A DNA stretch of 33,770 bases from an uncultured Bacteroidales bacterium. GTDB taxonomy: Bacteria > Bacteroidota > Bacteroidia > Bacteroidales > UBA4417. The notes beneath the pieces are model-generated. The model made no database searches and was not told where the DNA came from. It saw only the letters and a list, made by a program, of their open reading frames with translations. The DNA lies in assembly GCA_903879715.1 (NCBI GenBank), contig CAIRMR010000083.1, positions 1 to 33,770 on the forward strand. The letters run 5' to 3'. Position numbers and translations under genes: made by a program. How positions within the stretch are numbered: position 1 is the stretch's first letter; each line of letters starts with the position of its first letter. This document shows positions 5,764 to 30,049 of the stretch, piece after piece.

Positions 5764-7956
5764 ATGAATAGATTTATTTGTGTTATCATGGTTGTAGTCG
5801 CCTTGTTTGCAGGCAGCTGTTCGCAGAGCATAACCGAAACGGCATTTGCGGTATTGAAAAAAGATTTTTTAAATCCACCTTTGAAGTATCGGATGAACCA
5901 GAATGTTCACAGAATTCCTTTAGATGAAAAAGGACAGGATTCTTTGATCAAAGTGTATCTCGATAATGGCTACGGGGGATTTACCATAAATGTCCCCTAC
6001 GAACATTACCTGGAAGATGCAGCGATGAAAGCCACCCTTCGTTTCTGCGAAAAGGCCAGGAGTGCAGGACTGGAGTTGTGGCTTTATGATGAGAACGGTT
6101 ATCCATCCGGTAACGCGGGATATCTTGTTATCAAGACAAACCCTGAATGGGAAGTTATGGGGCTCTTTTTTGATGATACGCTGGTAACCGGGGGCCCTTT
6201 ACATTTCAGGCTACCTCCCGGGAAATCGGAATTAGTGGCTGCATTTCCTGTTTCAGGGAAGGTGGTGGATTATAGCAGGAAAACGGATCTTTCAGGTTTT
6301 ATCAAGGGTTCTTATCTTATATGGAATGCTCCTGAAGGCGAATGGAATATATTTGCTGTTACAAAGGATCAGCTTTATGAAGGATTTCAGGTTTCAAAAA
6401 AACCGGGTGGATCTGCCAGTCCGCATTATCCATCCCTGATGATCCCGGAGGTAACCGAGACTTTTCTCAGGGTAAATCACGAAGTTTACGCTGAATACCT
6501 GGGGAAAGACCTGGGTAAATATTTCACTTCTACCTTTACCGATGAACCTTCACTTATGGCGGTCCCTTTCGAATGGTACTCATGGTCGGTAATCCCCTGG
6601 CAGGAAGTTCTGTCGGAAGAAATTAAAAAACGGTATGGATACCGGCCTGAAGAAAGGCTTGTTGAGCTTTTCTCCGACAAAGGTCCTGCAGGGCAGCAGG
6701 TGCGGTATCAGTATTTCCATACTGTGGGGGATTTGATAGTCAATAATTATTTTAAGCCAATTAAAGAGTGGTGCGCTAATCATAACTTTAAATCGGGAGG
6801 CCACCTTCTTTTGGAAGAAACTATGATGGCGCAGGTTCCTCTTTATGGAGATGCAATGAAATGCTTCAGAGAAATGGATGCCCCGGGAATCGACATTCTA
6901 AGCTGTTTACCCCGGTTTATGCCGGTTCATTCACCTAAGCTGGCTTCCAGCGCTGCTGAACTTGAAGGCCACGATCGGGTAATGAGCGAGCCCTGCCCTA
7001 TAATGGAGATTTATACCCTTGGCAGCGAGCCTCCCGCCGCTGAAGTGCGGGGCCATCTCAACATGCTGATGGCCGGAGGGGTGACTGACTTTAACAATTA
7101 TCTGAAGCTGTCTCACTCTGATCAGAAGCAGAAAATTGAGTTTAATACCTATGTTGGCAGAACTGTTATGCTTCTCCATGGAGGCTTTACTCGGGCTGAC
7201 ATAGGCGTTGTATACCCAATCGAATCTCTTTGGACACAGTTTACGCCCCAGCCACTTAAGGTAGTTGATGGCTTCTTCACGGACCCAAACATGTCGGGTT
7301 GGGACACAGTGGCCGGAGGATCCCCCGACGCTATCCTGGTTGAACAAACCTTCCGGAATATTTCCAGGTTCATGTTCAAAAACCGTAGAGAATATTCTTT
7401 CCTTGATTCACGCGCTATCATAGATTCAAAAGTGATTAATGGTGAATTGGTAAATGGCCGGTTGCACTGGAAAGTCATCGTGTTACCGGCTGTATCTACC
7501 TTGCCGGAAGAAGCCTGGAAGAGATTATTTGAATTTGCTGAGGGCGGTGGAAAAATTATTGCCCTTGAACTGATGCCTCTCAACACGGAAAAGAAATTCC
7601 CTGACACAGAGATTCAATCCAGGGCTAAAAAGCTTTTTGAAACCAATGACAATGTCAAACTGGTGACAAACTGGAAATCGCAGAAAATAGAAGAGCTACT
7701 GAACGGGTGGCTGGGAAAAGAAGTGAATCTGGAGGATGAATTGCTACCGGTAAGGATTGCCCACCGGCAGATCGAAAACAAAGATGTCTTTTTTATCTTG
7801 AATGATTCCGGCAAAGCATTATCAACAAAGGTTACTTTGAAAGCACCTTCTGAAATGGAAGAGTGGGATCCTGCTTCAGGAAAAATCCTGGAAGTTTCAA
7901 ATTCATTTACCATCAATCTTTTGCCATATCATGCCAAAATATACAGGAGTAAATGA
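5764..7956 (+). CDS. GH106-like (alpha-L-rhamnosidase-related) glycoside hydrolase lipoprotein
   Basis: 730 residues. The signal peptide ends in a lipobox-like 'LFAGSC' (Cys19), so a surface or periplasmic lipoprotein is likely. The N-terminal module has the GH106-type TIM-barrel start: 'FLNPPLKYRMNQNVHRIPLD', then 'VYLDNGYGGFTINVPYE' and 'GLELWLYDENGYPSGNAGYLV'. A 'TFTDEPSL' motif (Asp260-Glu261) is a good candidate for a catalytic acid. Later parts include 'KSGGHLLLEE', 'GIDILSC' and a Rossmann-like stretch near 'VIVLPAVSTLPEEAWKRLFEFAEGGGKII', followed by a beta-sandwich end. GH106 enzymes release L-rhamnose from pectic glycans, but this protein is shorter than typical GH106 members, so the substrate is open. 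It sits between the two leader repeats and ends just before a sulfatase remnant. Confidence 0.7.
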   Translation: MNRFICVIMVVVALFAGSCSQSITETAFAVLKKDFLNPPLKYRMNQNVHRIPLDEKGQDSLIKVYLDNGYGGFTINVPYEHYLEDAAMKATLRFCEKARSAGLELWLYDENGYPSGNAGYLVIKTNPEWEVMGLFFDDTLVTGGPLHFRLPPGKSELVAAFPVSGKVVDYSRKTDLSGFIKGSYLIWNAPEGEWNIFAVTKDQLYEGFQVSKKPGGSASPHYPSLMIPEVTETFLRVNHEVYAEYLGKDLGKYFTSTFTDEPSLMAVPFEWYSWSVIPWQEVLSEEIKKRYGYRPEERLVELFSDKGPAGQQVRYQYFHTVGDLIVNNYFKPIKEWCANHNFKSGGHLLLEETMMAQVPLYGDAMKCFREMDAPGIDILSCLPRFMPVHSPKLASSAAELEGHDRVMSEPCPIMEIYTLGSEPPAAEVRGHLNMLMAGGVTDFNNYLKLSHSDQKQKIEFNTYVGRTVMLLHGGFTRADIGVVYPIESLWTQFTPQPLKVVDGFFTDPNMSGWDTVAGGSPDAILVEQTFRNISRFMFKNRREYSFLDSRAIIDSKVINGELVNGRLHWKVIVLPAVSTLPEEAWKRLFEFAEGGGKIIALELMPLNTEKKFPDTEIQSRAKKLFETNDNVKLVTNWKSQKIEELLNGWLGKEVNLEDELLPVRIAHRQIENKDVFFILNDSGKALSTKVTLKAPSEMEEWDPASGKILEVSNSFTINLLPYHAKIYRSK

Positions 7957-9463: not shown

Positions 9464-10345
9464 ATGACACTTACTGAAAGAATTACAAGCCATAAAATAC
9501 TGATCCTTGATGGTGCCACAGGATCCGAATTAATTGCCCGTGGATTAGTTGCAGGCGAATGCCCGGAGTTGTGGAATATATCTCATCCTGAAACAATTAA
9601 GGAAATTTCTGCATCTTATTTCGAGGCGGGATCAGATGCTGTGCTCACTAATACATTTGGAGGATCTTTTTTGAAGCTCAAGGCCTATAATCTCGAAAGC
9701 CAGGCCTACGAGTTGAATTTCGGGGGTGCGCGAAATGCCATTTCTGTCAAGCCTGAAGGGAAGTTCGTTATCGGTTCCATCGGACCAAGCGGGTTGATGT
9801 TGGAGCCTTTCGGCGACACAACATACCAGGAAATGACCGATTCATTTGCGGTGCAGGTTAAAGCCATGGCTGATGCAGGCGTTGATGGATTTATGCTCGA
9901 AACGTTCACCGACCTGGAGGAAATACAATGTGCAATCCATGCTGTAAAAGAAAATTCAGACCTTCCATTCTTTGCTTCCATGACATTCAGCAATACTCCC
10001 GATGGGCATAAAACTATGATGGGTGTCAGCGTGAAGGATTTTGTTGAAGCAATGCAAACAGCAGACGCACTGCTGGTCGGATCAAATTGTGGCAACGGAA
10101 TACTGAAAATGATTGATCTGGCTAAAGAATTCAGAAGTGTGTCCGCCACCGTTAATCTATTGCTCAAGGCAAATGCCGGGGAACCTCATCTTCATGATGG
10201 AGCGATTTGTTATTCTGAATCTCCTGAGGTGTTTGCGTCAAATTTGACTGAACTTCTGGCCATTTCACCTTCAGCAATCGGAGGTTGTTGCGGCACCAAT
10301 CCTGAACATATCAGGAGGATAAAACAGAAAATTGATTCCGTTTAA
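9464..10345 (+). CDS. Homocysteine S-methyltransferase (MetH N-terminal-module type)
   Basis: 293 residues covering one complete homocysteine S-methyltransferase barrel: 'ILDGATGSELIARGL' (about 13-27), 'DAVLTNTFGG', 'GSIGPSGLMLEP', 'DGFMLETFTDLEE'. Zinc ligands are visible as Cys209 in 'GSNCGNG' and Cys275-Cys276 in 'GGCCGT', matching the Cys/Cys-Cys set of MetH and BHMT that activates homocysteine thiolate. It lacks the pterin, cobalamin and activation modules of full MetH. The next genes encode separate corrinoid and activation proteins, so it probably takes a methyl group from the corrinoid protein to make methionine in the cytoplasm. Direct use of another methyl donor, as in BHMT, remains possible. 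ATG start; first gene of the cassette. Confidence 0.9.
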   Translation: MTLTERITSHKILILDGATGSELIARGLVAGECPELWNISHPETIKEISASYFEAGSDAVLTNTFGGSFLKLKAYNLESQAYELNFGGARNAISVKPEGKFVIGSIGPSGLMLEPFGDTTYQEMTDSFAVQVKAMADAGVDGFMLETFTDLEEIQCAIHAVKENSDLPFFASMTFSNTPDGHKTMMGVSVKDFVEAMQTADALLVGSNCGNGILKMIDLAKEFRSVSATVNLLLKANAGEPHLHDGAICYSESPEVFASNLTELLAISPSAIGGCCGTNPEHIRRIKQKIDSV

Positions 10346-10450
10346 TCTTAATGTTTTCAACATTTACCCCTTTTCTGGAAAATAAATAATTTACATTAAA
10401 CCGAATTTTCAGAACTCACCACAACAATGTAAGATAAATACCAAAATGCT

Positions 10451-11119
10451 ATGAACGAACTACTTGAAAAGTTATCACTTGCTGTTGAATCAGGAAAAAT
10501 CAGTAAATTATCGCCTTATCCTCCTGCAATGAAGGGATTGGACGGAGCAGATGAACTTTGTCAGCAAGCACTTGAAGCAGGGATTAAACCTGAAGTCATT
10601 TTAAATGATGCCTTAATACCGGGCATGGGTCGCATAGGGAAAAAATTTTCCGATGGAAAGGCTTTTGTACCCGAAATGCTTATTGCCGCCAAAGCTATGT
10701 CAGCGGCTTTGAAACACATTAAGCCATTCTTTACCTCAGGCGAAGTAAAACGCAAGGGTGTTTTCGTAATAGGAACGGTTATGGGCGATTTGCATGATAT
10801 TGGTAAAAATCTGGTAGCCATGATGATAGAAGGTTCCGGATGGGAAGTAGTTGACCTGGGTGTGGATGTAAAACCCGAAAAATTCCTGGAGGCTATCAAC
10901 CAACATCCTGACTGTGTGATCGGATTATCGGCGCTTCTTACAACCACGATGGTAAATATGGAAGTCATTGTAAAGCAAATCAGAGCTCAATATCCCGATA
11001 ATAAGATATTGGTCGGGGGTGCACCTTTATCGCATGATTTCTGTAAAAAAATAGGCGCCACTTTCTATTCTTCTGATCCGCAGGGCGCAGTTGAATTCCT
11101 GGAAAGATCAGTTGCTTAG
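10451..11119 (+). CDS. Corrinoid (methyl-carrier) protein, MtaC/MtbC-like
   Basis: 222 residues. Residues about 1-90 form the helical B12-binding cap ('LNDALIPGMGRIGKKFSDGKAFVPEML'). Residues about 101-222 form the Rossmann-type B12-binding domain. The D-x-H-x-x-G signature is Asp113-Leu-His115-Asp-Ile-Gly118, with His115 expected as the lower axial cobalt ligand. It is supported by 'GLSALLTTTM' (158-167) and 'LVGGAPLS'. Such proteins carry a methyl group on Co(III) between two methyltransferases. It stands 105 bp after the homocysteine methyltransferase and 45 bp before the MtaA-like gene, and is the only corrinoid protein in the window, so it is the likely hub for both URO-D-type proteins. 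Confidence 0.95.
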   Translation: MNELLEKLSLAVESGKISKLSPYPPAMKGLDGADELCQQALEAGIKPEVILNDALIPGMGRIGKKFSDGKAFVPEMLIAAKAMSAALKHIKPFFTSGEVKRKGVFVIGTVMGDLHDIGKNLVAMMIEGSGWEVVDLGVDVKPEKFLEAINQHPDCVIGLSALLTTTMVNMEVIVKQIRAQYPDNKILVGGAPLSHDFCKKIGATFYSSDPQGAVEFLERSVA

Positions 11120-11164
11120 AATCCGAATAAAATGAATAATTATTTACACTTAATACTATAGAAT

Positions 11165-12175
11165 GTGAAGAACAATACAGAATGGTTTAATACATTGCTT
11201 AAAGCAAATAAACGCTATGCAATTCCAATTATGACCCATCCGGGTATTGATCTGATAGGAAAAACAGTAAAAGAAGCAGTAACAAACGGAGAAATTCATT
11301 ATCAGGCTATTGATGCACTGAATAAAAAATATCCTGCTGATGCTGCTACCATTATAATGGATTTAACCGTTGAAGCAGAAGCATTTGGCTCAACCATAAA
11401 TCTTCCGGAACACGAAGTTCCCACCGTAACGGAACGGTTAGTTTCCGATGCCGAAGCTGTTGATAATCTGAAAGTGCCTGGCCTGGACGCCGGACGGATT
11501 CAGGAGTATTTATTGGCAGCCCGTTTGGCGGCACAAAACATTACCGATAAACCTGTATTTGCCGGTTGCATAGGCCCCATTTCATTGGCTGGCCGGCTTT
11601 TCGATATGACGGAGTTAATGACCTCGCTTTATATTGAACCTGATGTTATCGAAAAACTTCTTGAGAAATGCACTGAGTTTATAATTAAATATATACGCGC
11701 ATTTAAGGACACCGGGGTAAGCGGAATTATTATTGCTGAGCCGGCTGCCGGATTGTTATCAGAGGATATGTGCGACGAGTTTTCATCTAAATATATTCAT
11801 CAGATTGTGGCTCAGTTACAGGATGAAACTTTTATGATTATCCTCCATAATTGTGGCAACAAAGGTCATTTAACCAAATCGATGGTTTCCACAGGCGCAC
11901 AAGGACTGCATTTTGGAAATGCCATTAACATGGTTGATGCCCTCGCCGAAATTCCTTCAGGCGTTATCGCCATGGGAAATCTCGATCCGGTTAATGTGTT
12001 TAAAATGATGAACCCCGGGCAATTGTATAGTTCCACAACCGAACTTTTACAAAAAACAAGAGAGTACACTAATTTTGTCATCTCTTTGGGATGCGATACA
12101 CCTCCCAACGTTCCCATAGCAAATATTGATGCTTTTTATCAGGCAATTACTGATTTTAATACATTGCAAAATTGA
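11165..12175 (+). CDS. MtaA/CmuA-type (URO-D family) corrinoid methyltransferase
   Basis: 336 residues of the URO-D fold. The MtaA-type zinc site is intact: His228 and Cys230 in 'LHNCGN' and Cys310 in 'SLGCDTPPNVP', the same H-x-C ... C arrangement that activates coenzyme M in MtaA. 'CIGPISLAGRL' and 'AMGNLDPVNVF' also fit. The start is GTG at 11165; a stop (TAG 11159-11161) lies just upstream, and the first in-frame ATG (11231) would remove the start of the fold. Bacteroidota do not make coenzyme M, so the thiol partner must differ, or, as in CmuA, this domain may methylate the corrinoid. The stop overlaps the start of the next gene by 4 bp (TTGA), suggesting translational coupling. Confidence 0.9.
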   Translation: MKNNTEWFNTLLKANKRYAIPIMTHPGIDLIGKTVKEAVTNGEIHYQAIDALNKKYPADAATIIMDLTVEAEAFGSTINLPEHEVPTVTERLVSDAEAVDNLKVPGLDAGRIQEYLLAARLAAQNITDKPVFAGCIGPISLAGRLFDMTELMTSLYIEPDVIEKLLEKCTEFIIKYIRAFKDTGVSGIIIAEPAAGLLSEDMCDEFSSKYIHQIVAQLQDETFMIILHNCGNKGHLTKSMVSTGAQGLHFGNAINMVDALAEIPSGVIAMGNLDPVNVFKMMNPGQLYSSTTELLQKTREYTNFVISLGCDTPPNVPIANIDAFYQAITDFNTLQN

Positions 12176-12870
12176 ATACAACAGCCATAAAAGAGATTTC
12201 ATTTGAAGAACTTTTGCTAACCCGCGAAGATGTAATTCCCCTTTTGGGTGGTGAGTCGGAATATGCTTTTTTAATGCACGAATATCTTGATACTCTTTTC
12301 GAACAAGGCAAACAGATATTTCAGATTATGGGAGGTTACCTGGTGTTCGATAAGCTGACATTTAACCCGGAAATACGCGAAATAGTAATAGGGGATGTGA
12401 ACTTCGATGTTAAAAAGATAGTATTCAACATGCTTAAGCGAAGCAGCAAAATTGCCGTTTTTGTATGCACGGCCGGTGATAAAATCCATGAACTGTCGAG
12501 GCAATATATGGCAGAAGGCGATATGCTGAAAGGATATGTGTATGACTTATTCGGCTCGCTTGTGGTTGAAAGTGCCATGGATCTGGTTCAGCAATCGCTC
12601 AGGCTGGAAATGGAAGGTGAAGGCTATAAATTAACTAACAGATATAGCCCCGGTTACTGCGGGTGGACAGTAGATCATCAGAAAAAATTATTTAGTCTCT
12701 TAAATCAGAATTTCAGTTTTGTTACACTATCAGATAGCTGTTTGATGCAGCCAATAAAATCGGTAAGCGGAATTATTGGTATTGGTCACGATGTGAAACA
12801 CAATGACTATACCTGCCATATCTGCGACTCAACCAATTGTTTGTATAAAAACCTGAAAAAACATGGCTGA
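12172..12870 (+). CDS. Stand-alone MetH activation-domain protein (corrinoid reactivation), with Cys-rich tail
   Basis: 232 residues resembling the C-terminal activation domain of B12-dependent methionine synthase. The AdoMet-binding signature is visible as 'RYSPGYCGW' (Arg157, Ser159-Tyr162) and 'SVSGIIGIG' (197-205). The likely role is reductive methylation of inactive Co(II) corrinoid using AdoMet. The tail holds C-x2-C-x4-C (Cys215, 218, 223), absent from MetH itself and suggesting a metal or Fe-S site, or redox thiols, for electron delivery. The start is TTG at 12172, overlapping the preceding stop as TTGA; no better start is visible, and the N-terminal 'ISFEELLLTREDVIPLLG' fits the family. 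It is probably translationally coupled to the MtaA-like gene. Confidence 0.85.
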   Translation: MNTTAIKEISFEELLLTREDVIPLLGGESEYAFLMHEYLDTLFEQGKQIFQIMGGYLVFDKLTFNPEIREIVIGDVNFDVKKIVFNMLKRSSKIAVFVCTAGDKIHELSRQYMAEGDMLKGYVYDLFGSLVVESAMDLVQQSLRLEMEGEGYKLTNRYSPGYCGWTVDHQKKLFSLLNQNFSFVTLSDSCLMQPIKSVSGIIGIGHDVKHNDYTCHICDSTNCLYKNLKKHG

Positions 12871-12944
12871 AATTCATGTAGTTTAAAACGAATAGGAAGC
12901 TATCAAAAGTTAATATGAATCATGTGATCTAACAAAAGATGATT

Positions 12945-12962
12945 GTTGTGAGTCATCACAAC
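12945..12962. promoter_or_regulatory. Short palindrome GTTGTGA-N4-TCACAAC
   Basis: A perfect 7-bp inverted repeat around GTCA, 74 bp before the DUF6580 gene. It resembles a CRP/FNR-family half-site pair, but with a 4-bp rather than 6-bp spacer. It could equally be a small tetraloop hairpin. No T-run follows it directly. Confidence 0.35.
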
Positions 12963-13035
12963 TGGTGAAACAGGAGATAATAAATTTCAATGTTTTTTAC
13001 ATTCTTTAATCGAAAATCCTTTAAAAATCAATACA

Positions 13036-13560
13036 ATGAGAAAAATTGAACTTACCCCAAAATTGTATGTAGTAATCGTGATGATCGTTACCGGAGCCAT
13101 GATGCGTCTTATTCCCCACTGGCCCAATTTTACTCCGATCGCTGCAATAGCATTATTTGGCGGTACTTTTGTAAAACGCAAAGACCTGGCATTTCTTATA
13201 CCGGTTGCGGCTATGTTGTTGAGCGATCTGATTATTGGATTTCATTCAACTATGCTTCCTGTTTACCTGAGTTTCATTGCAATTGTTGCTTTTGGATTAG
13301 TATTGCAACGAAGGCTTACTGTTGTGAATACGCTCTCAGCCTCCCTGGCAGCATCAGTTTTATTTTACCTTGTTACCAATTTCGCGAGTTGGACTTCAGG
13401 ATTAATGCCTTATCCAATGAATGCTTCAGGTCTAATACAATCATACATTGCGGGTCTGCCTTTCCTGTTTAATGGAGTACTTGGTGATTTGTTTTATACA
13501 TCAGTCCTTTTCGGAGCAGCTTACCTGGTATCAAACCGCCAGGCTGTTTATGTGAAATAA
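13036..13560 (+). CDS. DUF6580-type integral membrane protein (possible ECF-type transporter component)
   Basis: 174 residues, almost entirely membrane segments (about 10-30, 38-58, 62-80, 84-105, 108-130, 145-165). The 'PHWPNFTPIAAIALFGG' motif after the first helix, 'LIPVAAMLLSDLIIGF' and the C-terminal 'GLPFLFNGVLGDLFYTSVLFGAAYL' are characteristic of DUF6580, a family thought to be related to substrate-binding (S) components of ECF vitamin transporters. Its place straight after the corrinoid genes suggests cobalamin or precursor uptake, but that is inference; no ECF A or T component is visible. A 165-bp gap with a palindrome precedes it, so it may have its own promoter. Confidence 0.75.
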   Translation: MRKIELTPKLYVVIVMIVTGAMMRLIPHWPNFTPIAAIALFGGTFVKRKDLAFLIPVAAMLLSDLIIGFHSTMLPVYLSFIAIVAFGLVLQRRLTVVNTLSASLAASVLFYLVTNFASWTSGLMPYPMNASGLIQSYIAGLPFLFNGVLGDLFYTSVLFGAAYLVSNRQAVYVK

Positions 13561-13753: not shown

Positions 13754-15169
13754 ATGAAGACTAAAGTAGGATTATTTGGAATTGGCCTCGACACGTATTG
13801 GGCACAATTTGATGGATTGCTCGACAATCTGAAAACATACCAGGGACAGATTAAAAACCGCATTGCCGGATATGGTGTTGAGGTTGTGGATGCCGGTATG
13901 GTTGACAACCCGGTGAGGGCCCGCGAAGCTGCAGACTACCTGAAATCACAGGATGTTGAAATTGTATTTTTGTATGTTTCAACCTATGCATTATCTTCAA
14001 CCGTATTGCCGGTAGCGCAAAAGCTGAAAGTGCCGGTAGTGATTCTAAACCTTCAGCCGGTAGCCGAACTGGATTACGCAACATTCAATAAACTTGGCGA
14101 TCGCGGTAAGATGACCGGCGTATGGCTCGAACATTGCCAGGCCTGCTCGGTTCCCGAGATTGCCAGTGTATTTAACCGATCAGGTATACAATACGATTTT
14201 GTAACCGGTTACCTTCAGGACGAAGAAGCCTGGCGGGAAATTGAGGCCTGGACCGAAGCAGCCCGCGTTGCCGCAGCCATGCGGAATAACCGTTTGGGTG
14301 TTTTGGGTCACTATTACTGTGGAATGCTCGATGTTTATACCGACATGACCAAACAATCAGCCGTTTTTGGCACGCACATCGAACTGCTCGAAATGTGTGA
14401 GCTGAAAAAATACCGCGACGAAGCAACAGATGCTGAAGTTCAGGCTAAAATCCGGGAATTTGCTACTGCTTTTGATGTGGCTCCTGAATGCGAAACCTTT
14501 GAAATTGAGCGTGCTGCACGTACTTCGGTGGCGTTGGATATGCTGATTAAAAAACGTAACCTGGGCTCAATGGCCTATTATTACGAAGGCGAATCAGGCA
14601 ACGATTACGAAAATATAGTGACTTCGGTAATTGCCGGTAATACCTTGCTGACAGGCAAAAACATTCCGATTGCCGGTGAGTGTGAAGTTAAGAATGCGCA
14701 GGCTATGAAAATCATGGCCGAGTTTGGCAGCGGAGGTTCGTTCTCCGAATTTTACCTGATGGATTTCAAAGACGATGTGGTAATGCTTGGCCACGACGGG
14801 CCGGCACATTCGGCCATCGCCGAAGGCCGGGTGAAACTGGTTCCTCTGTCGGTGTATCACGGGAAACCGGGAAAAGGATTATCCATTCAGATGAGTGTGA
14901 AACATGGCCCAGTTACATTGTTATCGGTAGTTGAAGGCAATGACGGCGTGTTCCTTCTGGTTGCCGAAGGCGAGTCAGTAGCCGGGCCGGTACTCGAAAT
15001 TGGAAATACTAACAGCCGATACCGCTTTTCAGTAGGAGCTAAAGGATTTATGAATTCATGGTCCAAACAGGGACCGGCACACCATTGCGCCATTGGAGTG
15101 GGGCATATTGCTGATAAGATTCAGAAACTTGGACAAATTCTGGGGATTGAGGTGGTGAAGATTTGTTAG
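13754..15169 (+). CDS. L-arabinose/L-fucose isomerase-family protein
   Basis: 471 residues, no signal peptide, cytoplasmic. The layout follows the arabinose isomerase superfamily: an N-terminal Rossmann-like part ('KVGLFGIGLDTYWAQFDGL', 'VSTYALSSTVLPVAQKLKVPVVILNLQP'), a middle domain ('RLGVLGHYYCGMLDVYTD') and a C-terminal metal-site domain. Candidate metal ligands are Glu278/Glu280 ('YYYEGE'), Glu309 ('AGEC'), His347 ('LGHDGPAH') and His443/His444 ('GPAHHCAIGVGH'), mirroring the E-E-H-H set of AraA. Family members interconvert aldoses and ketoses. By eye it looks richer in G+C than the next gene. Lying between the B12 cassette and the carbohydrate genes, it may act on the sugar freed by demethylation. 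The exact substrate is unknown. Confidence 0.8.
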   Translation: MKTKVGLFGIGLDTYWAQFDGLLDNLKTYQGQIKNRIAGYGVEVVDAGMVDNPVRAREAADYLKSQDVEIVFLYVSTYALSSTVLPVAQKLKVPVVILNLQPVAELDYATFNKLGDRGKMTGVWLEHCQACSVPEIASVFNRSGIQYDFVTGYLQDEEAWREIEAWTEAARVAAAMRNNRLGVLGHYYCGMLDVYTDMTKQSAVFGTHIELLEMCELKKYRDEATDAEVQAKIREFATAFDVAPECETFEIERAARTSVALDMLIKKRNLGSMAYYYEGESGNDYENIVTSVIAGNTLLTGKNIPIAGECEVKNAQAMKIMAEFGSGGSFSEFYLMDFKDDVVMLGHDGPAHSAIAEGRVKLVPLSVYHGKPGKGLSIQMSVKHGPVTLLSVVEGNDGVFLLVAEGESVAGPVLEIGNTNSRYRFSVGAKGFMNSWSKQGPAHHCAIGVGHIADKIQKLGQILGIEVVKIC

Positions 15170-16646: not shown

Positions 16647-18041
16647 ATGAGACAAATTCTTTTGAACATCATTCTACTTTTCATCTACATTCCCAATGGA
16701 TTTGGGAAAATTGTGCTTTCAACAGTTTTTTCGGACAATATGGTCTTGCAACAAAATTCTGAAGTTGTTATTTGGGGCTGGGGAATACCTGGTGAAAAGA
16801 TTAAAATAATAGCAAGTTGGAATGTAAAAGATACAGTGATAGCAGTGCCTGATAATCAGGCTAAATTCCTTATTACTTTAAAAACCATTCAAGCCGGCGG
16901 TCCATATATCGTCCAACTTATTGGTACTTCAAAAATTACATTGAGCGATGTTATGCTGGGTGAAGTTTGGCTGTGCAGCGGGCAGTCGAACATGGAATGG
17001 TCTGCTGATTACGGTATTAAAAATGGAGAACAAGAAATTGCCAATGCAAACAATCCTAATATTCGAATTCTTCATATTCAGAAAATAGGTGCTGATTTTC
17101 CTCAGCAAACATGTCAGGGATCATGGGAAGTATGCTCGTCCGAAACCATGCGCAAAACAAGTGCGATAGGCTATTTTTTCGCTCGGGAATTACAGCAAAA
17201 GCTGAATGTTCCGGTGGGAATCATAGTTTCGGCATGGGGTGGAACTCCCATCGAAGTCTGGATGGAAAAAAGCAGCATTATTCAAAATCCGGAACTTAAT
17301 AAAAACAAATTTAAGTGGCCGGATGCCAATCGACCGGACGAATCCGGGGTACTTTACAATTCGATGATTAATCCTTTAATTCCATTTGGTATTGCCGGAG
17401 CAATCTGGTACCAGGGCGAGTCGAATACAATGAATTATTCGGTTTATGCAGCCATGATGAAAACCATGATTGAAGGCTGGCGTAAAGACTTTAAAAAAGA
17501 TTTCCCGTTCTATTTTGTTCAGATAGCCCCATTTGATTATTGGGAAGGTGCTGATGCCAGACTACTTCGTGAACAACAGGGCATTGCTTCTAAAACCATT
17601 CCCAATACCGGCATGGTGGTGATTTCTGACCTTGTTGATGATGTAAAAGACATTCACCCGAAAAACAAACTGGATGTTGGTAAACGCCTGGCAAACTTCG
17701 CCCTGGTCGAAACTTATAAAAAAGAGATTGGTGCATATAAAAGTCCGATGTACCAGGCCATGCAGTTTGAAAAGGGCAAGATGCGTCTGTCGTTCAGCAA
17801 TGTGCAGACGAGCCTCAAATGTTCGGCTGAAACTCCCGGGAAATTTCTGATTGCCGGCGAAGATCAGAACTTTATTCCTGCAACGGCTAAGATTGAAGGA
17901 AAAACGATTTTGCTTTCGTCGAAACTGGTAAAATCTCCGGTAGCGGTTCGGTATTGTTTCGATAACACTTCGTTGCCGGATATTTTCAGTTCTGAAGGTT
18001 TGCCTTTGGCTCCGTTCAGGACTGACAACTGGGATAATTAA
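16647..18041 (+). CDS. Sialate O-acetylesterase-type carbohydrate esterase (SASA, SGNH-like)
   Basis: 464 residues with an N-terminal signal peptide (cleavage near residue 20). After a jelly-roll-like N-terminal part ('FSDNMVLQQNSEVVIWGWGIPGEKI') comes the SGNH hydrolase core: 'LCSGQSNMEW' with the nucleophile Ser114, 'SAWGGTPIEVWM' (195-206), 'AIWYQGESN' (252-260) and 'DIHPKNK' with catalytic His337. Enzymes of this family remove O-acetyl groups from sialic acid, xylan, pectin and other glycans. In this neighbourhood, deacetylation of a plant or algal polysaccharide is as plausible as host sialic acid. No other sialic-acid genes are present. The next gene follows after 33 bp, suggesting a shared transcript with the URO-D protein. 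Confidence 0.9.
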   Translation: MRQILLNIILLFIYIPNGFGKIVLSTVFSDNMVLQQNSEVVIWGWGIPGEKIKIIASWNVKDTVIAVPDNQAKFLITLKTIQAGGPYIVQLIGTSKITLSDVMLGEVWLCSGQSNMEWSADYGIKNGEQEIANANNPNIRILHIQKIGADFPQQTCQGSWEVCSSETMRKTSAIGYFFARELQQKLNVPVGIIVSAWGGTPIEVWMEKSSIIQNPELNKNKFKWPDANRPDESGVLYNSMINPLIPFGIAGAIWYQGESNTMNYSVYAAMMKTMIEGWRKDFKKDFPFYFVQIAPFDYWEGADARLLREQQGIASKTIPNTGMVVISDLVDDVKDIHPKNKLDVGKRLANFALVETYKKEIGAYKSPMYQAMQFEKGKMRLSFSNVQTSLKCSAETPGKFLIAGEDQNFIPATAKIEGKTILLSSKLVKSPVAVRYCFDNTSLPDIFSSEGLPLAPFRTDNWDN

Positions 18042-18074: not shown

Positions 18075-19178
18075 ATGAATTCTAGAGAGCGTGTTTTAAA
18101 AGCCTTTAAACGGCTGCCAGGATTACCAGATCGGGTTCCGGTTCAGTTTGAACTTTGCCGGCAGTTGTCCGACCATTTCGGAAAAGAACTGGGTATCCCT
18201 GTTCATTACACCGATAATCCGTATGAAGATGTTACATACCGTATCAGCGCCAACGAGTTGCGTGTGGCCATGGGGAGCGATGTAGTCGTAACCGGAGCTG
18301 CGGTTTCCGACGATTATAAAATTATCATGGATGAGCAGGGTTGCTGGCTAAATGAATATGGCATGAAAATGCGGCAAGGTGATATTTATGTGGAAGTGAT
18401 TGAATATCCTCTGGCAAACGCTGAAACAAGGGCTGATATAGAGAACTTTCAATTCCCTGATCCTGATGCGCCGGGACGATACAGAGACGCTGAAGCACTG
18501 GTAAAAAAATATAAAAACGATTACCTGGTTATCGGCGATATTGAAGTAACGGTATTCTCACTGGCTCATCAACTGGCCGGCATGGAGAAACTACTGGTTG
18601 ATATGATGATGGAAACAGAATACGTGATACCCTTATTCGAAGCCTGTGCCGAATACCAGACACAAGTTGGCCTGCGACTCATCGAAAAGGGAGTGGATGC
18701 TATCTGGTTCGGCGATGATTTTGGAACACAAACCAGTTTGATTCTCCCTCCCGAAACTTTTCGCGAACAACTGAAACCACATTACAAACGAATGATCGAT
18801 CGGTTTAAAGAAGCCAAGCCTGACATTATTCCTATCCTGCATTGCGACGGGGCTGTTGCTGAACTTCTTGATGATATCCGTGAAATGGGTTTCGAGGTCT
18901 TTAATCCGGTTCAGCCTGGTGTTCCCGGGCATTTGCCCCAGGATATGAAAGAGCGGTTCGGCGAAAAGTTTGCTTTCTGGGGTGCCATTGATCAACAGGA
19001 TTTGCTGCCTAACGGTACAGATGAAGACTTAGAAAAAGACATTATCGAAAAAATCAGCATTCTTGGCAAAGGGGGCGGTTATATGATTTCTCCGGCCCAC
19101 ATCCTGCAGAACGACGTTTCGCCCGAACGGGTACTGAAATTTATTGAACTGAGCAAAAGACATGGAAGTTATAGTTAG
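18075..19178 (+). CDS. Second URO-D-family protein, candidate substrate-specific corrinoid methyltransferase
   Basis: 367 residues of the URO-D fold, but a different branch from the MtaA-like gene: 'WFGDDFGTQTSLILPPETFREQLKPHYKRM' region (211-240), 'LHCDG' (His256-Cys257), 'EVFNPVQPGVPG' (274-285), 'FWGAIDQQDLLPNGT' (301-315) and 'GGGYMISPAH' (333-342). The H-x-C...C zinc triad of MtaA is absent, and true porphyrinogen decarboxylation is unlikely here because no haem genes are nearby. Relatives with these motifs are common beside corrinoid proteins in anaerobes. The best guess is a methyltransferase that removes a methyl group from a specific substrate and loads it onto the corrinoid protein encoded ~7 kb upstream. 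Tight spacing to the esterase suggests co-expression with sugar processing. Confidence 0.75.
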   Translation: MNSRERVLKAFKRLPGLPDRVPVQFELCRQLSDHFGKELGIPVHYTDNPYEDVTYRISANELRVAMGSDVVVTGAAVSDDYKIIMDEQGCWLNEYGMKMRQGDIYVEVIEYPLANAETRADIENFQFPDPDAPGRYRDAEALVKKYKNDYLVIGDIEVTVFSLAHQLAGMEKLLVDMMMETEYVIPLFEACAEYQTQVGLRLIEKGVDAIWFGDDFGTQTSLILPPETFREQLKPHYKRMIDRFKEAKPDIIPILHCDGAVAELLDDIREMGFEVFNPVQPGVPGHLPQDMKERFGEKFAFWGAIDQQDLLPNGTDEDLEKDIIEKISILGKGGGYMISPAHILQNDVSPERVLKFIELSKRHGSYS

Positions 19179-21912: not shown

Positions 21913-24900
21913 ATGAGAACTAAACTTCAGAATTTTGAAATGACAGATTTAATTCTATTACCTAAGAATATATTGCAATTTGCAATCGCTCTGCTGTGGA
22001 TGGCATTGTTTCTCTTTTCCGGTTTTGCTTACAGTCAGAATGATGCTAAGGATGCACTGCAAACCTTAAACCTGATTAACGAAAATATCCACGATGCCAC
22101 CCTTAGCGTTGAGGCTGGTTCGTACCGGATAAAAACTACCGGAAATGATCCGTTTATTTACACGGATGCACTTCAAAACAGTCTTTCTCTGGGAAACACA
22201 GTCCTTTCATTTGAATACTTCTGTCCGCGCGGGCTCGACCATCTGGAAATCTACTTTTGCCCTCCGGTTGATGTAAATCATTCAAAACTGGTAAGTAAAA
22301 TAGGGCTTTCGGAAGGCTGGGTCGGGTTTTCCATAGACCTGGGAAAGGATATCGGGGATTGGGGAAAACCGGGAGAATATCTCCGGCTTGATTTAGGTAG
22401 TATTTCGGGTGTCGATATTCAAATCAGAAATATAAAACTAAGGGCCAAAACAGCCCGCGAAATCCAGCTGGCAAGCGAATACCAGGAAAAGAAACGAAAA
22501 GAAACCATTCTCGAAAACAACCTGAATAAGTATCTTTCAACGGAATATGCGGCCCATATTACAAAGGTTGAAGTTGGCAGCGACAAAATTACAATAAGTG
22601 GAAATGCTGAAAAAGCATCTTCACTCTTCCTTTGCGAGATTCCGCCTTATCAGGATGTGACGGAAGAACAAACTTTTGCCACAACAATTCCTGTTTCAGG
22701 AGGGACATTTAAAACTTCGGCTCCGCGTTTCATTAAACGTGATGGACAAACTTACGACCGGCTGCTTTCTAAATGGGTTCTTGCAAAAAAAACGGCATCG
22801 GGTTATTCATTGGTTTCACATGCCCGTTATCCCGATCAGATCAAGTCCAAATATAATCTTCCGTATGAAAAAGCCAGCAGCCGGAAAGGTTTAGGCGGAT
22901 TCAGCACTAACCGAGGGCATACAGAAGATATGGAAGACCTTGATATTACAAGTGCAACGGTAAATATATGGATTACCAGGTTCATGTACAGCAAAGCTGC
23001 GCCCGACCGGATTGAACACCAATACAACGGAAAATCTTACTATTTTGGCAAAAAAGAAGTAGCTGTATTTGATTCAACTTTCAGCTTTACAGCAAAAAGG
23101 AATATCATTACGGCAGCCATTCTCCTTATCGACAAAATTGAAAATTGTGCTGATCCCGAAATCGGGAAACTCCTGCAGCACCCCGATTGCGACCCGGCAG
23201 GAATTTATGCTATGCCGAATATGACCAATCCTGAAAGCGTTGAATGTTATGCTGCGGCACTTGATTTCCTGGCAAGCAGGTATAGCCGTCCCGACAAAAA
23301 ATATGGCCGTTGTAATCACTGGATTATGCACAACGAAGTGGATGCTGGTTGGGTCTGGACCAATGCTGGAGACAAAACTGCCCTGGTTTTTATGGATACA
23401 TACATCAAATCCATGCGTATGTGTTACAACATCGCACGAAGCTACAACCCGCATTCAGAGGTGTTTGTAACGCTTACCCATTACTGGGCGTGGACATCAC
23501 ACCCTAAATTCTACCCTTCAAAAGATCTGATGGAATACCTCCTGAAATATTGCCGTGCTGAAGGGGATTTTCAATGGGCAATGGCTCAGCATCCGTATCC
23601 TGAAGATCTGTTCGAGCCCAAAACATGGCTCGATCCGAGAGTTACCTTCGATTTTAATACTCAGCTGATCACATTTAAAAACCTGGAAGTCCTGGATGCC
23701 TGGATCAAGCTTCCCGAAGCACTTTACCAAGGAAAGACAAAACGAACACTCTGGCTTTCTGAAAACGGTACCAATTCAAGAACTTATTCCGATCAGGATT
23801 TAAAAGAACAGGCAGCAGGCTTTGCCTATACCTGGAAGAAAATGAAAGATTTGGATGGAATTGACGGTTTTCAATGGCATAACTGGTTCGATCACCGGGG
23901 GGAGGGAGGCTTAAGGATCGGATTGCGTCGTTTTCCGGATGATGAAACTGATCCCGGTGGAGCGAAACCGGTTTGGTATGTGTACCAGGCTGCCGGAAGA
24001 GCCAATGAAGATTCGGTATTTGATCAGTACAAACAGGTTATTGGTATCAGGGATTGGGATGAAGTCAACTACATCGGTGAAATAGACCCGGCGAAGAAAC
24101 AACAGTCGTACCGTGATCTGAAGAGCGACTCCTGGGTGGCAACCGATGCTTTGGGCCGAAAACTTCCGACTTATGAAGATTGTGGTCCGGTAAAGAAAGA
24201 CCGCTTTGTCGGGATGTTTTATTTTATGACCCATATCACTCCGGGAGGTCCTGGTCCGTATGATGTAACTAAAACAATGAAAGCCAATCCTGATAATCCG
24301 CTTTGGGTTGATGGTGATTATTTCTGGGGCGAACCTGAAAACGGGTATTATCTTTCAAATGAAAAATGGATGATCCGGAAACATGCTCAGCTATTGTCGG
24401 ATGCCGGAGTGGATGTCATCATTTTTGATGTAACCAATGATAAAACATTCCCTGAAGTATATCTTCCGGTTTGCGAAGTTTTCCGTGAGATGCGTTCAAA
24501 TGGCGAAAAAACTCCTGATATCGCATTCCTGGGAAGTGAAATTTCAGTGAATACATTATGGAAAGACTTCTATAAAAAAGCCATGTATCCCGACCTGTGG
24601 TTTCAATGGAAAGGAAAGCCATTGCTGCTTTTTGGCCAGCATGAAATCCCGACGAGGAAGAAAAATAACGATGTGGTTTTCGCTGAGGAGATCCGCAGTT
24701 TCTTTTCAATCCGCCAGAGCTGGGCCTGGACTTCGCTTCCCTGGTATCAAAGCTGCCCGTATGGAAAAGATAAATGGCCATGGGTTGATCATTATCCCCA
24801 GGCTATCAACTGGCACGAATCTCCGGATAAAGCTGAGATGATCCCGGTGGCAGTAGGGCAGCACCCGCTTTCAAACATCGGCAGGAGTTATCATAACTAC

Positions 24901-25857
24901 AATCAACCGCAAGCAGACAAATTTGACCTGACTCCTTTTACTGATCAGGGACTTTGTTTTGAAGAACAATGGAGCCGTGCGCTCGCAGTCGATCCGGAGT
25001 TTGTGTTCGTAACCGGATGGAACGAATGGAGTGCCGGTGCGCAGGTAATGGGAAAGGATATCAATAAATCGCTCCTGAAATGGGATTTTTATCCCGGGGC
25101 TAATCTGGGAAAAGGAGGGAGAAAGTTAAAAGAAGGTGATCACTATTTTATCGACCAGTACAACCAGGAGTTCAGCCGCGATATTGAACCCATGACAGGC
25201 GGACATACCGATAATTATTATTACCAGCTGATGGCCAATATCCGCAGGTACAAAGGAATGGAAAAACCTATGGAGGCCGGACCTTCGGTTGCCATTGACA
25301 TCCGTGGCGATTTTAAACAATGGAACAACGTTAAAGCAGTTTATTACGATCATATCGGCGACACCGAACACCGGAACAGCCTTGGGCAGGGACAGGCCGG
25401 ACCTTATGTGAATAATACCGGAAGAAACGACATTGTTACTCTGAAAGTGGCCTATGATGCCAATTCGGTATATTTCTATGCCGAAACTGCCAAAGATATC
25501 AGTCCGACGACAGATAAAAACTGGATGTTGCTGTTTATTGATGCTGACCAGCAAAAGGAAACCGGCTGGGAAGGATATGACCTGGTAATCAATTCAGTAG
25601 TAACCAATCCTAAAATGACAACCCTTTCGTGGTTAAACAAGGATGGATCGATTGGGAAATCAGTAGCTGTACCTTACCAGCTTAATCAGAACAAACTAAT
25701 GATTAAGATCAAACGATCTGATTTGAGCAAAAATGAAAAGATTGCTTTTGACTTTCACTGGGCCGATAATATTCAAAAGATTGGTGATATTACGGAATTT
25801 TTCCTGAATGGCGATAACGCGCCCGAACGCCGTTCTAATTATCGGTTCCAACCATGA
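21913..25857 (+). CDS. Giant secreted double-barrel glycosidase-like protein (DUF5722-type + GH99/GH71-like) with C-terminal CBM9-like domain
   Basis: 1314 residues. The signal peptide ends near 'FAYSQ' (about 42); ATG 21940 (Met10) is an alternative start. Residues about 45-175 form a beta-sandwich. About 215-690 form a DUF5722-like GH-A barrel with 'MHNEVDAGW' (Glu475) and 'LSENGTNSRTY' (Glu617) as candidate acid/base and nucleophile. About 763-1110 is a second barrel of the GH99/GH71 type: 'FVGMFYFMTHITPGG', 'DAGVDVIIFDVTND' and 'VTGWNEWSAG' (Glu1038). Residues about 1127-1314 are a CBM9-like domain ('DIRGDFKQWNNVKAVYYDH', 'DIVTLKVAYDANSVYFYAE'). It presumably hydrolyses complex oligosaccharides in the periplasm or outside the cell. 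No lipobox or sorting domain is seen. Two catalytic modules fused in one chain is notable. Confidence 0.75.
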   Translation: MRTKLQNFEMTDLILLPKNILQFAIALLWMALFLFSGFAYSQNDAKDALQTLNLINENIHDATLSVEAGSYRIKTTGNDPFIYTDALQNSLSLGNTVLSFEYFCPRGLDHLEIYFCPPVDVNHSKLVSKIGLSEGWVGFSIDLGKDIGDWGKPGEYLRLDLGSISGVDIQIRNIKLRAKTAREIQLASEYQEKKRKETILENNLNKYLSTEYAAHITKVEVGSDKITISGNAEKASSLFLCEIPPYQDVTEEQTFATTIPVSGGTFKTSAPRFIKRDGQTYDRLLSKWVLAKKTASGYSLVSHARYPDQIKSKYNLPYEKASSRKGLGGFSTNRGHTEDMEDLDITSATVNIWITRFMYSKAAPDRIEHQYNGKSYYFGKKEVAVFDSTFSFTAKRNIITAAILLIDKIENCADPEIGKLLQHPDCDPAGIYAMPNMTNPESVECYAAALDFLASRYSRPDKKYGRCNHWIMHNEVDAGWVWTNAGDKTALVFMDTYIKSMRMCYNIARSYNPHSEVFVTLTHYWAWTSHPKFYPSKDLMEYLLKYCRAEGDFQWAMAQHPYPEDLFEPKTWLDPRVTFDFNTQLITFKNLEVLDAWIKLPEALYQGKTKRTLWLSENGTNSRTYSDQDLKEQAAGFAYTWKKMKDLDGIDGFQWHNWFDHRGEGGLRIGLRRFPDDETDPGGAKPVWYVYQAAGRANEDSVFDQYKQVIGIRDWDEVNYIGEIDPAKKQQSYRDLKSDSWVATDALGRKLPTYEDCGPVKKDRFVGMFYFMTHITPGGPGPYDVTKTMKANPDNPLWVDGDYFWGEPENGYYLSNEKWMIRKHAQLLSDAGVDVIIFDVTNDKTFPEVYLPVCEVFREMRSNGEKTPDIAFLGSEISVNTLWKDFYKKAMYPDLWFQWKGKPLLLFGQHEIPTRKKNNDVVFAEEIRSFFSIRQSWAWTSLPWYQSCPYGKDKWPWVDHYPQAINWHESPDKAEMIPVAVGQHPLSNIGRSYHNYNQPQADKFDLTPFTDQGLCFEEQWSRALAVDPEFVFVTGWNEWSAGAQVMGKDINKSLLKWDFYPGANLGKGGRKLKEGDHYFIDQYNQEFSRDIEPMTGGHTDNYYYQLMANIRRYKGMEKPMEAGPSVAIDIRGDFKQWNNVKAVYYDHIGDTEHRNSLGQGQAGPYVNNTGRNDIVTLKVAYDANSVYFYAETAKDISPTTDKNWMLLFIDADQQKETGWEGYDLVINSVVTNPKMTTLSWLNKDGSIGKSVAVPYQLNQNKLMIKIKRSDLSKNEKIAFDFHWADNIQKIGDITEFFLNGDNAPERRSNYRFQP

Positions 25858-26954: not shown

Positions 26955-27160
26955 GAGTTTGGGAAATATGGACTGCATTAAACCCCTATTATGGTAAGCA
27001 TGACATCTGGCTTTGATAGAATAAAAGCAGGAAAGGAATATGCGTTAATAGAGTTAAAGGCTATGTCATAAACTACTTCTTATCGTTGAAACAGACATAT
27101 TCTGCCTTATCTGAAATTATAATTAAAACCGGATTTATGCAAATTGATAGAAGCAGTAAA

Positions 27161-28228
27161 ATGACCCGAATGCAAAAAAGCATTACAGCTTACTTTTGGC
27201 TCCGCTTATTGGCATTGGGTTTCATCATCCATGGGTGTAAAGCAGAAAGTTCCCGGCAAAACACGGAAAAAACACCTGAAAAAAAATCCATCAAATCGGG
27301 ACAAGAATGGTACGATACGGATGGGAAGCTCATTCAGGCGCATGGCGGGGGAATGCTTTACCACGAAGGGGTTTATTACTGGTACGGAGAAAATAAAGAT
27401 ACAGACACAAAATTTCCAAGATTAAGAACTGATATAATTGGCATTAACTGCTATTCGTCCACCGATTTTTACAACTGGAAAAATGAAGATATAGTTTTGC
27501 CCGCAGTAAAAGATGATCCGGGCAGCGCCCTTTATCCGCAAAATGTTCTTGAACGCCCCAAAGTAATTTTTAACGACAAAACCGGTAAATTTATCATGTG
27601 GTTTCATGTTGATGATTCTCTATATCAAAAAGCACATGTCGGGATTGCCGTAAGCGATAGCCCGAAAGGCCCGTTCATTTTCAAGGAAAGTTTCAGGCCA
27701 CTTGGTTTCGAAAGCCGCGATATGACAGTATTTAAAGATGATGATAGTAAAGCGTATTTAGTATTTGGCTCAGGATGGCATAATAAAATTGTAATTGCCG
27801 AACTATCTGAAGATTATCTATCATTGAATGGATCTTATACAACCCATCTGCACACCGATGGTCCGCCCTTGGGCAGGGAAGCTCCGGCTTTGTTCAAACG
27901 AAAAGGTAAATACTACCTGATAACATCCGGAACAACAGGATGGTTTACAAATCCGGCCCAATGTGATGTGGCAGAAAATATAAACGGACCCTATAAAACC
28001 ATTGGTAATCCTTGCGAAGGAATGTATGCAGAAGTTACTTTTTTGGGGCAAAGCACTCACGTACAAAAAATACAGGGAAAGGAAGATGCATTTGTATTTA
28101 TGGCCGACAGGTGGATTCCAACTGATTTAAAGAACTCCAGATACCTTTGGCTTCCGGTACAATTTAATAAAAACAACGAGCCGGTATTAAAATGGATAAA
28201 TGAATGGGATATGGATTCCTATAAATAA
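27161..28228 (+). CDS. GH43-family lipoprotein (GH43_24-like arabinofuranosidase/galactanase clan)
   Basis: About 355 residues from ATG 27161; ATGs at 27137 and 27170 are equally possible and none has a good ribosome site. The signal ends 'LGFIIHGCKA', with a lipobox-like Cys. The catalytic five-bladed propeller begins 'WYDTDGKLIQAHGGGMLYHEGVYYWYGENK', a start typical of GH43 enzymes related to exo-beta-1,3-galactanases, and continues with 'CYSSTDFYNWKNE', 'LERPKVIFNDKTGKFIMW', 'ESRDMTVFKDDDSKAYLVF' and 'GREAPALFKRKGKYYLITSG', the last holding the likely acid Glu. Substrate guesses are arabinogalactan or another galactan/arabinan side chain. It is followed by another GH43 and a GH2, forming a beta-galactoside/arabinoside degradation block. 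Confidence 0.85.
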   Translation: MTRMQKSITAYFWLRLLALGFIIHGCKAESSRQNTEKTPEKKSIKSGQEWYDTDGKLIQAHGGGMLYHEGVYYWYGENKDTDTKFPRLRTDIIGINCYSSTDFYNWKNEDIVLPAVKDDPGSALYPQNVLERPKVIFNDKTGKFIMWFHVDDSLYQKAHVGIAVSDSPKGPFIFKESFRPLGFESRDMTVFKDDDSKAYLVFGSGWHNKIVIAELSEDYLSLNGSYTTHLHTDGPPLGREAPALFKRKGKYYLITSGTTGWFTNPAQCDVAENINGPYKTIGNPCEGMYAEVTFLGQSTHVQKIQGKEDAFVFMADRWIPTDLKNSRYLWLPVQFNKNNEPVLKWINEWDMDSYK

Positions 28229-29964: not shown

Positions 29965-30037
29965 CAGGAGAACAGACAAGATGGTCAAAAGCCGTAGTTA
30001 CATGTGTTTTGGTAATATGAACCTCATTATAATTTTA

Positions 30038-30044
30038 AAGGAAG
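30038..30044 (+). promoter_or_regulatory. Shine-Dalgarno site AAGGAAG fixing the start at 30050
   Basis: Five bases before ATG 30050, whose product begins with a clean signal peptide. The in-frame ATG at 29951 would overlap the previous gene and add 33 residues before that signal. Confidence 0.55.
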
Positions 30045-30049
30045 TAAAG

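Follow-up and report, generated by a model that had tools for sequence, protein, structure and literature searches.

Here we describe a group of genes for corrinoid-dependent methyl transfer on a 33,770-nucleotide contig from an uncultured Bacteroidales bacterium of the UBA4417 lineage (GenBank assembly GCA_903879715.1, contig CAIRMR010000083.1, forward strand), and we suggest that this cassette, together with a second methyltransferase-like gene lying 3′ of it, may form an O-demethylation system for a methylated sugar. The contig, referred to in its whole length as the window, is C83 of a 6.07-Mb assembly of 223 contigs that is 99.6% complete, and family scans covered 21 window proteins. The cassette comprises five open reading frames (ORFs) which a preliminary description, made from the letters alone, had placed at positions 9464-13560; all five lie there on the + strand, and the residues that it had named in the first three products are present. 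In order, they encode a homocysteine S-methyltransferase-like protein, SMT (9464-10345; PF02574, S-methyl_trans, 6.4e-63; Cys209/275/276); a stand-alone corrinoid protein, Cor (10451-11119; B12-binding PF02310, 1.4e-24, and B12-binding_2 PF02607, 1.5e-18), whose DLHDIG motif starts at residue 113 and places the histidine at His115; Uro1, a C-type, MtaA-like member of the uroporphyrinogen decarboxylase (URO-D) superfamily (11165-12175; PF01208, 2.8e-58; His228-x-Cys230...Cys310); Act, which resembles the MetH activation domain (12172-12870; PF02965, Met_synt_B12, 36.9 bits, cut-off 25); and a DUF6580 membrane protein (13036-13560; PF20221, 7.6e-51). The successive spacings are 105, 45, -4 and 165 bases, and 193 bases separate DUF6580 from the next gene, Iso. 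No Rfam RNA was found in the window or in the stretch that holds the second copy described below (L004).

SMT likely transfers methyl groups to homocysteine, and Act, in which the C-terminal C-x2-C-x4-C cysteines (Cys215/Cys218/Cys223) are invariant in 20 of 20 aligned family sequences, likely carries out the reductive reactivation of the corrinoid, while DUF6580 may be a transporter for corrinoid uptake. What a corrinoid methyl-transfer chain to homocysteine would need, MetH-type reactivation included, thus appears to be in place as had been proposed, and a Pfam scan bore out that the cassette holds no pterin-binding, that is methyl-tetrahydrofolate (methyl-THF), module. The assignment of Uro1 to the MtaA type stands in a looser form: the protein matches structure 4ay7 (1.2e-17) and is MtaA-like, but it is not a certified member, since its score of 125.2 bits against the MtaA/CmuA family TIGR01463 falls under the curated cut-off of 235.4. 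Because its site is of the thiol-type His-Cys-Cys kind, Uro1 more probably serves the acceptor (thiol) side of the chain.

A second copy of the unit is found on contig C9, with protein identities of 83-98% (SMT 91%, Cor 98%, Uro1 86%, Act 83%, DUF6580 91%). The duplicated unit runs past 13560 and takes in Iso (13754-15169, + strand; 96%), a sugar isomerase of the AraA/FucI type, and a second URO-D protein, Uro2 (18075-19178, + strand; 90%), so that the boundaries drawn in the preliminary description leave out both the isomerase and the likely donor-side enzyme. That the whole unit has been kept as a second copy argues that the gene set is more than chance. Iso matches PF11762 and PF02952, as well as AraA structures down to 1.8e-08; aligned to what we take to be the AraA ligands, two Glu and the last His match, and the fourth ligand position is an Asp. 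The unit looks accessory, since the genus mate G119, one of the relatives sampled, has no match to Act, Uro2 or Iso.

The cassette had been read as a MetH split into separate proteins, with its pterin module replaced by URO-D methyltransferases. This reading did not survive, because contig C96 encodes an intact MetH of 1220 aa that combines the homocysteine, pterin and cobalamin modules in a single frame and whose gene adjoins one for a methylene-THF reductase (PF02219); the cassette is therefore not the host's MetH in pieces, and Uro1 would sit on the wrong side of the chain for such a replacement. The same description had named a full-length MetH or a methyl-THF:corrinoid methyltransferase feeding the cassette as evidence that would speak against it: the former is present elsewhere, as just said, and no stand-alone transferase of the latter kind (AcsE-like) was found in the genome. 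Genome-wide, PF00809 is matched by the full MetH and by one further protein only (L245), which was considered as such a transferase and rejected, as it reads as FolP by what we take to be the FolP motif. Five matches to COX1-family proteins in the genome make a strictly anaerobic organism improbable; the term 'anaerobic' that had been given to the route was too strong, and the route would be oxygen-independent without being proof of an anaerobe.

Uro2 carries His256-x-Asp258...His342 (PF01208, 2.2e-25), and its Asp215 is invariant in the family alignment (A5). With its model (mean pLDDT, predicted local distance difference test, 92.9; 25 sequences), the best PDB matches in Foldseek were uroporphyrinogen decarboxylases and the methylcobalamin:coenzyme M methyltransferase 4ay7/4ay8, at query TM-scores of 0.71-0.73, and Uro2 is a URO-D superfamily protein by both sequence and fold. 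We aligned 90 of the 108 URO-D proteins from the fetched loci, namely those of 280-520 aa: 42, Uro2 included, are H-type (His-x-[Cys/Asp]...His), 41, including Uro1 and a form of 450 aa, are C-type (x-x-Cys...Cys), and 7 are other. On a FastTree tree the H and C labels need 1 change, where 200 shuffles gave 27.9 on average and never fewer than 21 (the seven others being free), and Uro1 and Uro2 fall by this analysis into two deep URO-D clades; both types occur together in 21 of 57 loci. According to PMC10418091, which like the other papers here is cited from excerpts, a His-Cys-Cys site goes with S-methyl substrates (sulfur/selenium type), and carboxylate substitution or ligand loss goes with O-methyl substrates. 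By this ligand rule Uro1 would be thiol-type and Uro2 O-type, and we propose that Uro2 is a sugar-methyl-ether:corrinoid methyltransferase and the likely donor-side enzyme of the unit.

The link to sugars, drawn in the preliminary description from neighbouring isomerase, esterase and glycosidase genes, gained ground, as some relatives have cytoplasmic sugar genes (RhaT, RhaM, galactokinase, RhaA, sugar kinase) at these loci and not glycosidases only. RhaT adjoins an H-type URO-D gene in L190 and L200, the latter with a mutarotase too. L207 has the order GntR regulator, URO-D, RhaT, RhaM, RhaA (1.3e-188) and FGGY kinase, so that the URO-D gene by its position heads a rhamnose operon, and in L205 RhaT and URO-D are accompanied by three fucosidase-like genes, two of which were scored (2.2e-86 and 4.5e-72), and by a mutarotase 71% identical to that of L200. 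Galactokinase-like genes stand beside URO-D in L178 (TIGR00131, 288.7 bits, cut-off 226.65), L104 and L106. We collected 100 Act loci, 20 from a sample of 149 genomes of the same order (own genome counted) and 80 named ones; L163 repeats L099 and L134 repeats L095, and both repeats are still counted in the operon types, which were URO-D in 41 loci, AcsE/MetVF in 29, both in 1, Act alone in 13, Act with Cor in 7, Act with SMT in 5 and no Act gene called in 4. The Pfam neighbour lists of the URO-D-type loci (69 and 71 proteins) omit L163, L134 and L149, keep proteins of 95-1200 aa, count both of the near relatives L200 and L202, and give the 25 commonest families of each set; among these are rhamnosidase (5/69 and 3/71), RhaM (5/71), RhaT (4/71), sugar transporter (5/69), GH127 (4/69) and sulfatase (4/71).

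Tests against chance were made in the 149 genomes, of which 22 have Act, 21 match the Uro2 query and 12 have Iso, with rounded genome sizes, 38 of 39 RhaT rows (one under the cut-off removed) and 15 of 17 Iso rows (two fragments removed). UroD and Act lie within 10 kb of each other 7 times against 0.21 expected, UroD-Iso pairs number 4 against 0.13, in each case with 2 being the own genome's copies, and Act-Iso pairs number 2 against 0.047, both of them own copies. UroD and RhaT lie within 2 kb 3 times against 0.061 expected, a comparison run after the pairs had already been noticed. In 28 of the 30 UroD loci of the sample (the two of the own genome omitted), the 71 neighbour ORFs include, among the 25 of 72 families listed, fucosidase 3, sulfatase 3, galactokinase 3 (two of which are by coordinates the L104 and L106 loci again), RhaT 2, B12-binding 4, Act 2 and SMT 1. 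None of these seven is among the 25 of 101 families listed for 75 control ORFs, where one RhaA and no glycoside hydrolase (GH) appear; the controls are 20 stretches of our own choosing from UroD-bearing genomes, 3 of them from the own genome and 2 no more than about 16 kb from a UroD gene of the same contig.

Single loci of relatives bring the parts together in other ways. L126 has, in order, a DUF5722 gene (67% to the window protein at 21913), GH78, GH42, GH43, Cor, Act, Uro2 (49%) and SMT (40%); in L125, Act (70%) is followed by a GH106 protein (8.4e-34); and G125 has Uro2 (47%) and Iso (78%) on one 13-kb contig. SMT of the window type occurs in L128 (59%, a 123-aa fragment) and L129 (56%) in a gene run that also holds a sugar porter; the porter of L128 reaches 394.6 bits (cut-off 237.8). 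Outside the own genome, Uro2 relatives of at least 47% identity are few (G022, two in G131, and G125).

In the window itself the unit is surrounded, all on the + strand, by genes for a GH106-like protein of the alpha-L-rhamnosidase family (5764-7956; PF17132, 3.7e-13), a SASA-type carbohydrate esterase between Iso and Uro2 (16647-18041; PF03629, 3.2e-23), a DUF5722 protein (21913-25857; PF18989, 2.6e-123), for the function of which no paper was found, GH43 (27086-28228; PF04616, 2.5e-23), GH43 with CBM6 (28297-29964) and GH2 (29951-32515). We suggest that the glycosidases and the esterase would free an O-methyl sugar, which Uro2 would bind, activating its ether oxygen at a His/Asp/His metal site so that the methyl group could move to Co(I) of Cor. 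Methyl-Cor might then methylate homocysteine on SMT, with methionine as the product, a thiol at the His-Cys-Cys site of Uro1, or both, while AdoMet (S-adenosylmethionine)-dependent Act would restore oxidised Co(II) corrinoid, Iso would isomerise the freed sugar and DUF6580 may supply corrinoid. The sequences establish which components and motifs are present, that the unit is duplicated and what surrounds such genes in relatives; each of these reactions we infer, together with the sugar, the metal of Uro2, the acceptor used by Uro1 and the place where most methyl groups go. As a first guess, the donor would be an O-methyl-6-deoxyhexose of the rhamnose or fucose type. We give this sugar O-demethylation, with the cassette and Uro2 acting on a methylated sugar from the glycan of the locus, slightly better than even odds (about 0.55). 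It is favoured because Uro2, Iso and the cassette are duplicated together, because H-type URO-D genes lie beside RhaT, RhaM, galactokinase and fucosidase genes in relatives, and because the own genome has no match to MtaB, cytochrome P450 or a stand-alone AcsE-like protein.

Several points weigh against it. An unactivated alkyl methyl ether is a chemically demanding substrate for Co(I), and the principal sink for the methyl groups is unproven, since methionine demand cannot take one methyl group per sugar. The middle position of the H-type site is Cys in 31 of 42 proteins and Asp in 11, so the carboxylate rule fits only those 11 and appears to suit the group of Uro2 better than the whole clade. 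The window proteins scanned include none recognisable as a sugar transporter or kinase. The close Uro2 relatives of G022 and G131 are without Cor or Act on the fetched stretches, and G022, with a Uro2 at 82%, has no Act match at all; Act and RhaT were never within 10 kb of each other in the sample (0 against 0.12 expected), and the UroD-RhaT test is post hoc. Of the 100 Act loci, 29 are of the AcsE/MetVF type. Among the genes of at least 100 aa in the 80 named Act loci there is no match to Iso or DUF6580, and in the sample Iso pairs with Act just in the own genome's two copies; Iso and DUF6580 are therefore tied to the cassette by the own genome alone.

This last point speaks for the view that there is no functional link at all and that a methyl-transfer cassette has glycosidase neighbours by default, Bacteroidota genomes being rich in carbohydrate loci; DUF6580, too, is found in 39 of the 149 genomes, just 4 of which have Act. 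We nevertheless hold a chance association to be quite unlikely, because it does not account for the adjacency test and the joint duplication, nor for the contrast between the families listed beside UroD (fucosidase, sulfatase, galactokinase, RhaT) and those of the controls. Somewhat easier to entertain, though still unlikely, is a salvage of methyl-sulfur or methyl-selenium, in which Uro1 would demethylate a methylthio compound onto Cor and SMT would make methionine, the sugar genes being incidental. The His-Cys-Cys site of Uro1 is read as sulfur/selenium-type in excerpts from PMC10418091, such a pathway would resemble what has been proposed for type 1 mlp gene clusters, and bare SMT-Act pairs occur in some relatives (L095, L100). 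It would leave unexplained, however, why the H-type Uro2 is duplicated with the cassette and why RhaT, RhaM, galactokinase and fucosidase are neighbours of the Uro2 clade.

Two other donors seem to us highly improbable, and about equally so. Methanol from methyl-esterified pectin would agree with the presence of MtaB among the Cor/Act operon neighbours of relatives (2/69 and 2/71 proteins), which suggests methanol use in some of these operons and is a further point against the sugar O-demethylation reading; the own genome is without an MtaB match, which only 8 of the 149 genomes of the order have, so methanol, which the preliminary description had kept as a possible donor, is unlikely here. 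Methoxylated aromatics tied to plant polysaccharides would fit the fact that known aryl O-demethylases belong to the URO-D superfamily (PMC13222342, PMC10418091), but no aromatic-metabolism family occurs among the window proteins scanned or the 25 families listed for each set of UroD neighbours, and parts of the Uro2 clade sit with sugar transporters and kinases. On balance, the observations of the preliminary description are confirmed, and its interpretation is partly supported.

The proposed sugar O-demethylation shares features with several known systems. Corrinoid demethylation by separate proteins is described for glycine betaine, where it is linked to methionine synthesis (PMC12478193), and for aryl ethers and chloromethane (PMC13222342), and it has been proposed for methyl-sulfur and methyl-selenium compounds (PMC10418091); Price et al. 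(PMC7857596) reported folate-independent methionine synthases of another type. The type 1 mlp clusters of Kountz and Balskus (PMC10418091), for which methionine salvage is proposed, likewise contain a corrinoid protein and several MtaA-like URO-D proteins, one with His-Cys-Cys, a signature that Uro1 has and Uro2 lacks. The window differs in that its activase is of the MetH-activation-domain (PF02965) type and not Ram/RACE, one URO-D protein is His-Asp-His, SMT is present and sugar genes surround the unit; no RACE-like family was found among the 21 window proteins scanned, which were the part of the genome searched for it. The aryl O-demethylases OdmB, VdmB, MtvB and MtoB (PMC13222342, PMC10418091) share the URO-D methyltransferase I, the corrinoid protein and the ether substrate that we propose, whereas here no pterin-type methyltransferase II or RACE was recognised and the neighbours are sugar genes. 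The MtgBCDE system of Ruegeria pomeroyi (PMC12478193) also ties demethylation to methionine synthesis through corrinoid and homocysteine proteins that are separate, but its donor enzyme is a pfam06253 protein acting with pterin-binding MtgD, in place of which the window has URO-D proteins and no pterin module. The methanol system MtaABC has a corrinoid protein and an MtaA-like protein as well, and differs in its MtaB. As for MetH, its homocysteine module (PF02574, three Cys) and cobalamin module (PF02310, PF02607) are present as separate proteins, the pterin module is not in the cassette, and the full-length enzyme is not replaced. The demethylation route that we found in print for a methylated sugar is the P450 system for 6-O-methyl-D-galactose of porphyran users (PMC10033563), which shares the proposed overall task; in the excerpts cited it is oxidative and yields formaldehyde, and the own genome has no P450 match. 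A literature search that covered open-licence PMC papers only returned no report of a corrinoid sugar demethylase.

It is about an even bet, in our estimation, that O-methylated sugars are handled in Bacteroidota and some other phyla by a modular corrinoid pathway, in which interchangeable H-type URO-D proteins would share a common Cor, Act and C-type URO-D, related Cor-AcsE-Act modules would operate in apparent glucuronoxylan loci (GH115), and the methyl group would go to homocysteine, other thiols or THF and not to formaldehyde. As part of the same reading, each H-type URO-D would sit in the locus of its own sugar, that is, rhamnose or fucose (RhaT, RhaM), galactose (GalK) or the glycan of the window (Iso). 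If this were true, corrinoid demethylation would extend from amines, sulfides, methanol and aryl ethers to the alkyl ethers of sugars, and sediments and guts would have a C1 source in methylated sugars. Plant and algal glycans commonly carry methyl-capped sugars, and an oxygen-independent route would fill a gap in their use. Genomes of named strains carry operons of this kind (Carboxylicivirga sediminis, L178 and L190; Sunxiuqinia elliptica, L202; Parabacteroides faecis, L182), which makes the hypothesis testable.

Some observations concern the wider distribution of these genes. In L164 (4126-19541) Cor-AcsE-Act stands directly behind GH10 and beside GH115, GH3, a second GH10 and a SASA esterase, which looks like a corrinoid module in a glucuronoxylan locus; no donor-side methyltransferase was recognised on the fetched stretch, and L159 and L151 resemble it by gene sizes. 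In L137, L140, L141, L147, L153, L169 and L180, a pair of genes of about 492 and 440 aa comes after Cor-AcsE(-MetVF)-Act; the pair in L137 is an FGGY sugar kinase and a xylose-isomerase-like protein, families that each account for 8 of 49 neighbours in the AcsE set. Cor with Act and/or URO-D was also seen in records that bear the names of groups outside Bacteroidales, L187 (Neiella marina), L166 (Fibrobacteria), L179 (Ignavibacteriales) and L197 (Melioribacteraceae), which suggests transfer of cassette genes between phyla. Decayed pieces of Act with Uro1 (L124, G064:C18), of a corrinoid/URO-D gene (L205, 13447-13812) and of Iso (L088, 17441-18160) show that relatives have lost genes of this kind more than once. 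We also considered whether Uro2 has a DUF5722 partner in G125 and rejected this, since the L091 protein, 38% like the window protein at 21913 over 659 aa, has no DUF5722 match and only PA14, CBM and sorting domains.

Among 30 DUF6580 loci, the gene lies directly 3′ of a cobalamin riboswitch in L221 and L215, and in L230 and L234 it adjoins a gene that we take to be CobU. A C-type URO-D protein of about 450 aa (Phe-x-Cys...Cys) is encoded in L106 (8511-9866), where it has a CxxC in its C-terminal part, with relatives in L178, L190 and L200; in all four loci its gene adjoins those for a CobW-like GTPase and Act. In the own genome, the two remaining URO-D genes are likewise set among carbohydrate genes: the other C-type URO-D gene (C75; L210, 8308-9447) is one gene away from a SASA-like esterase, and the other H-type gene (C106; L211, 5503-6636) lies between two homologues of the GH106-like protein of the window.

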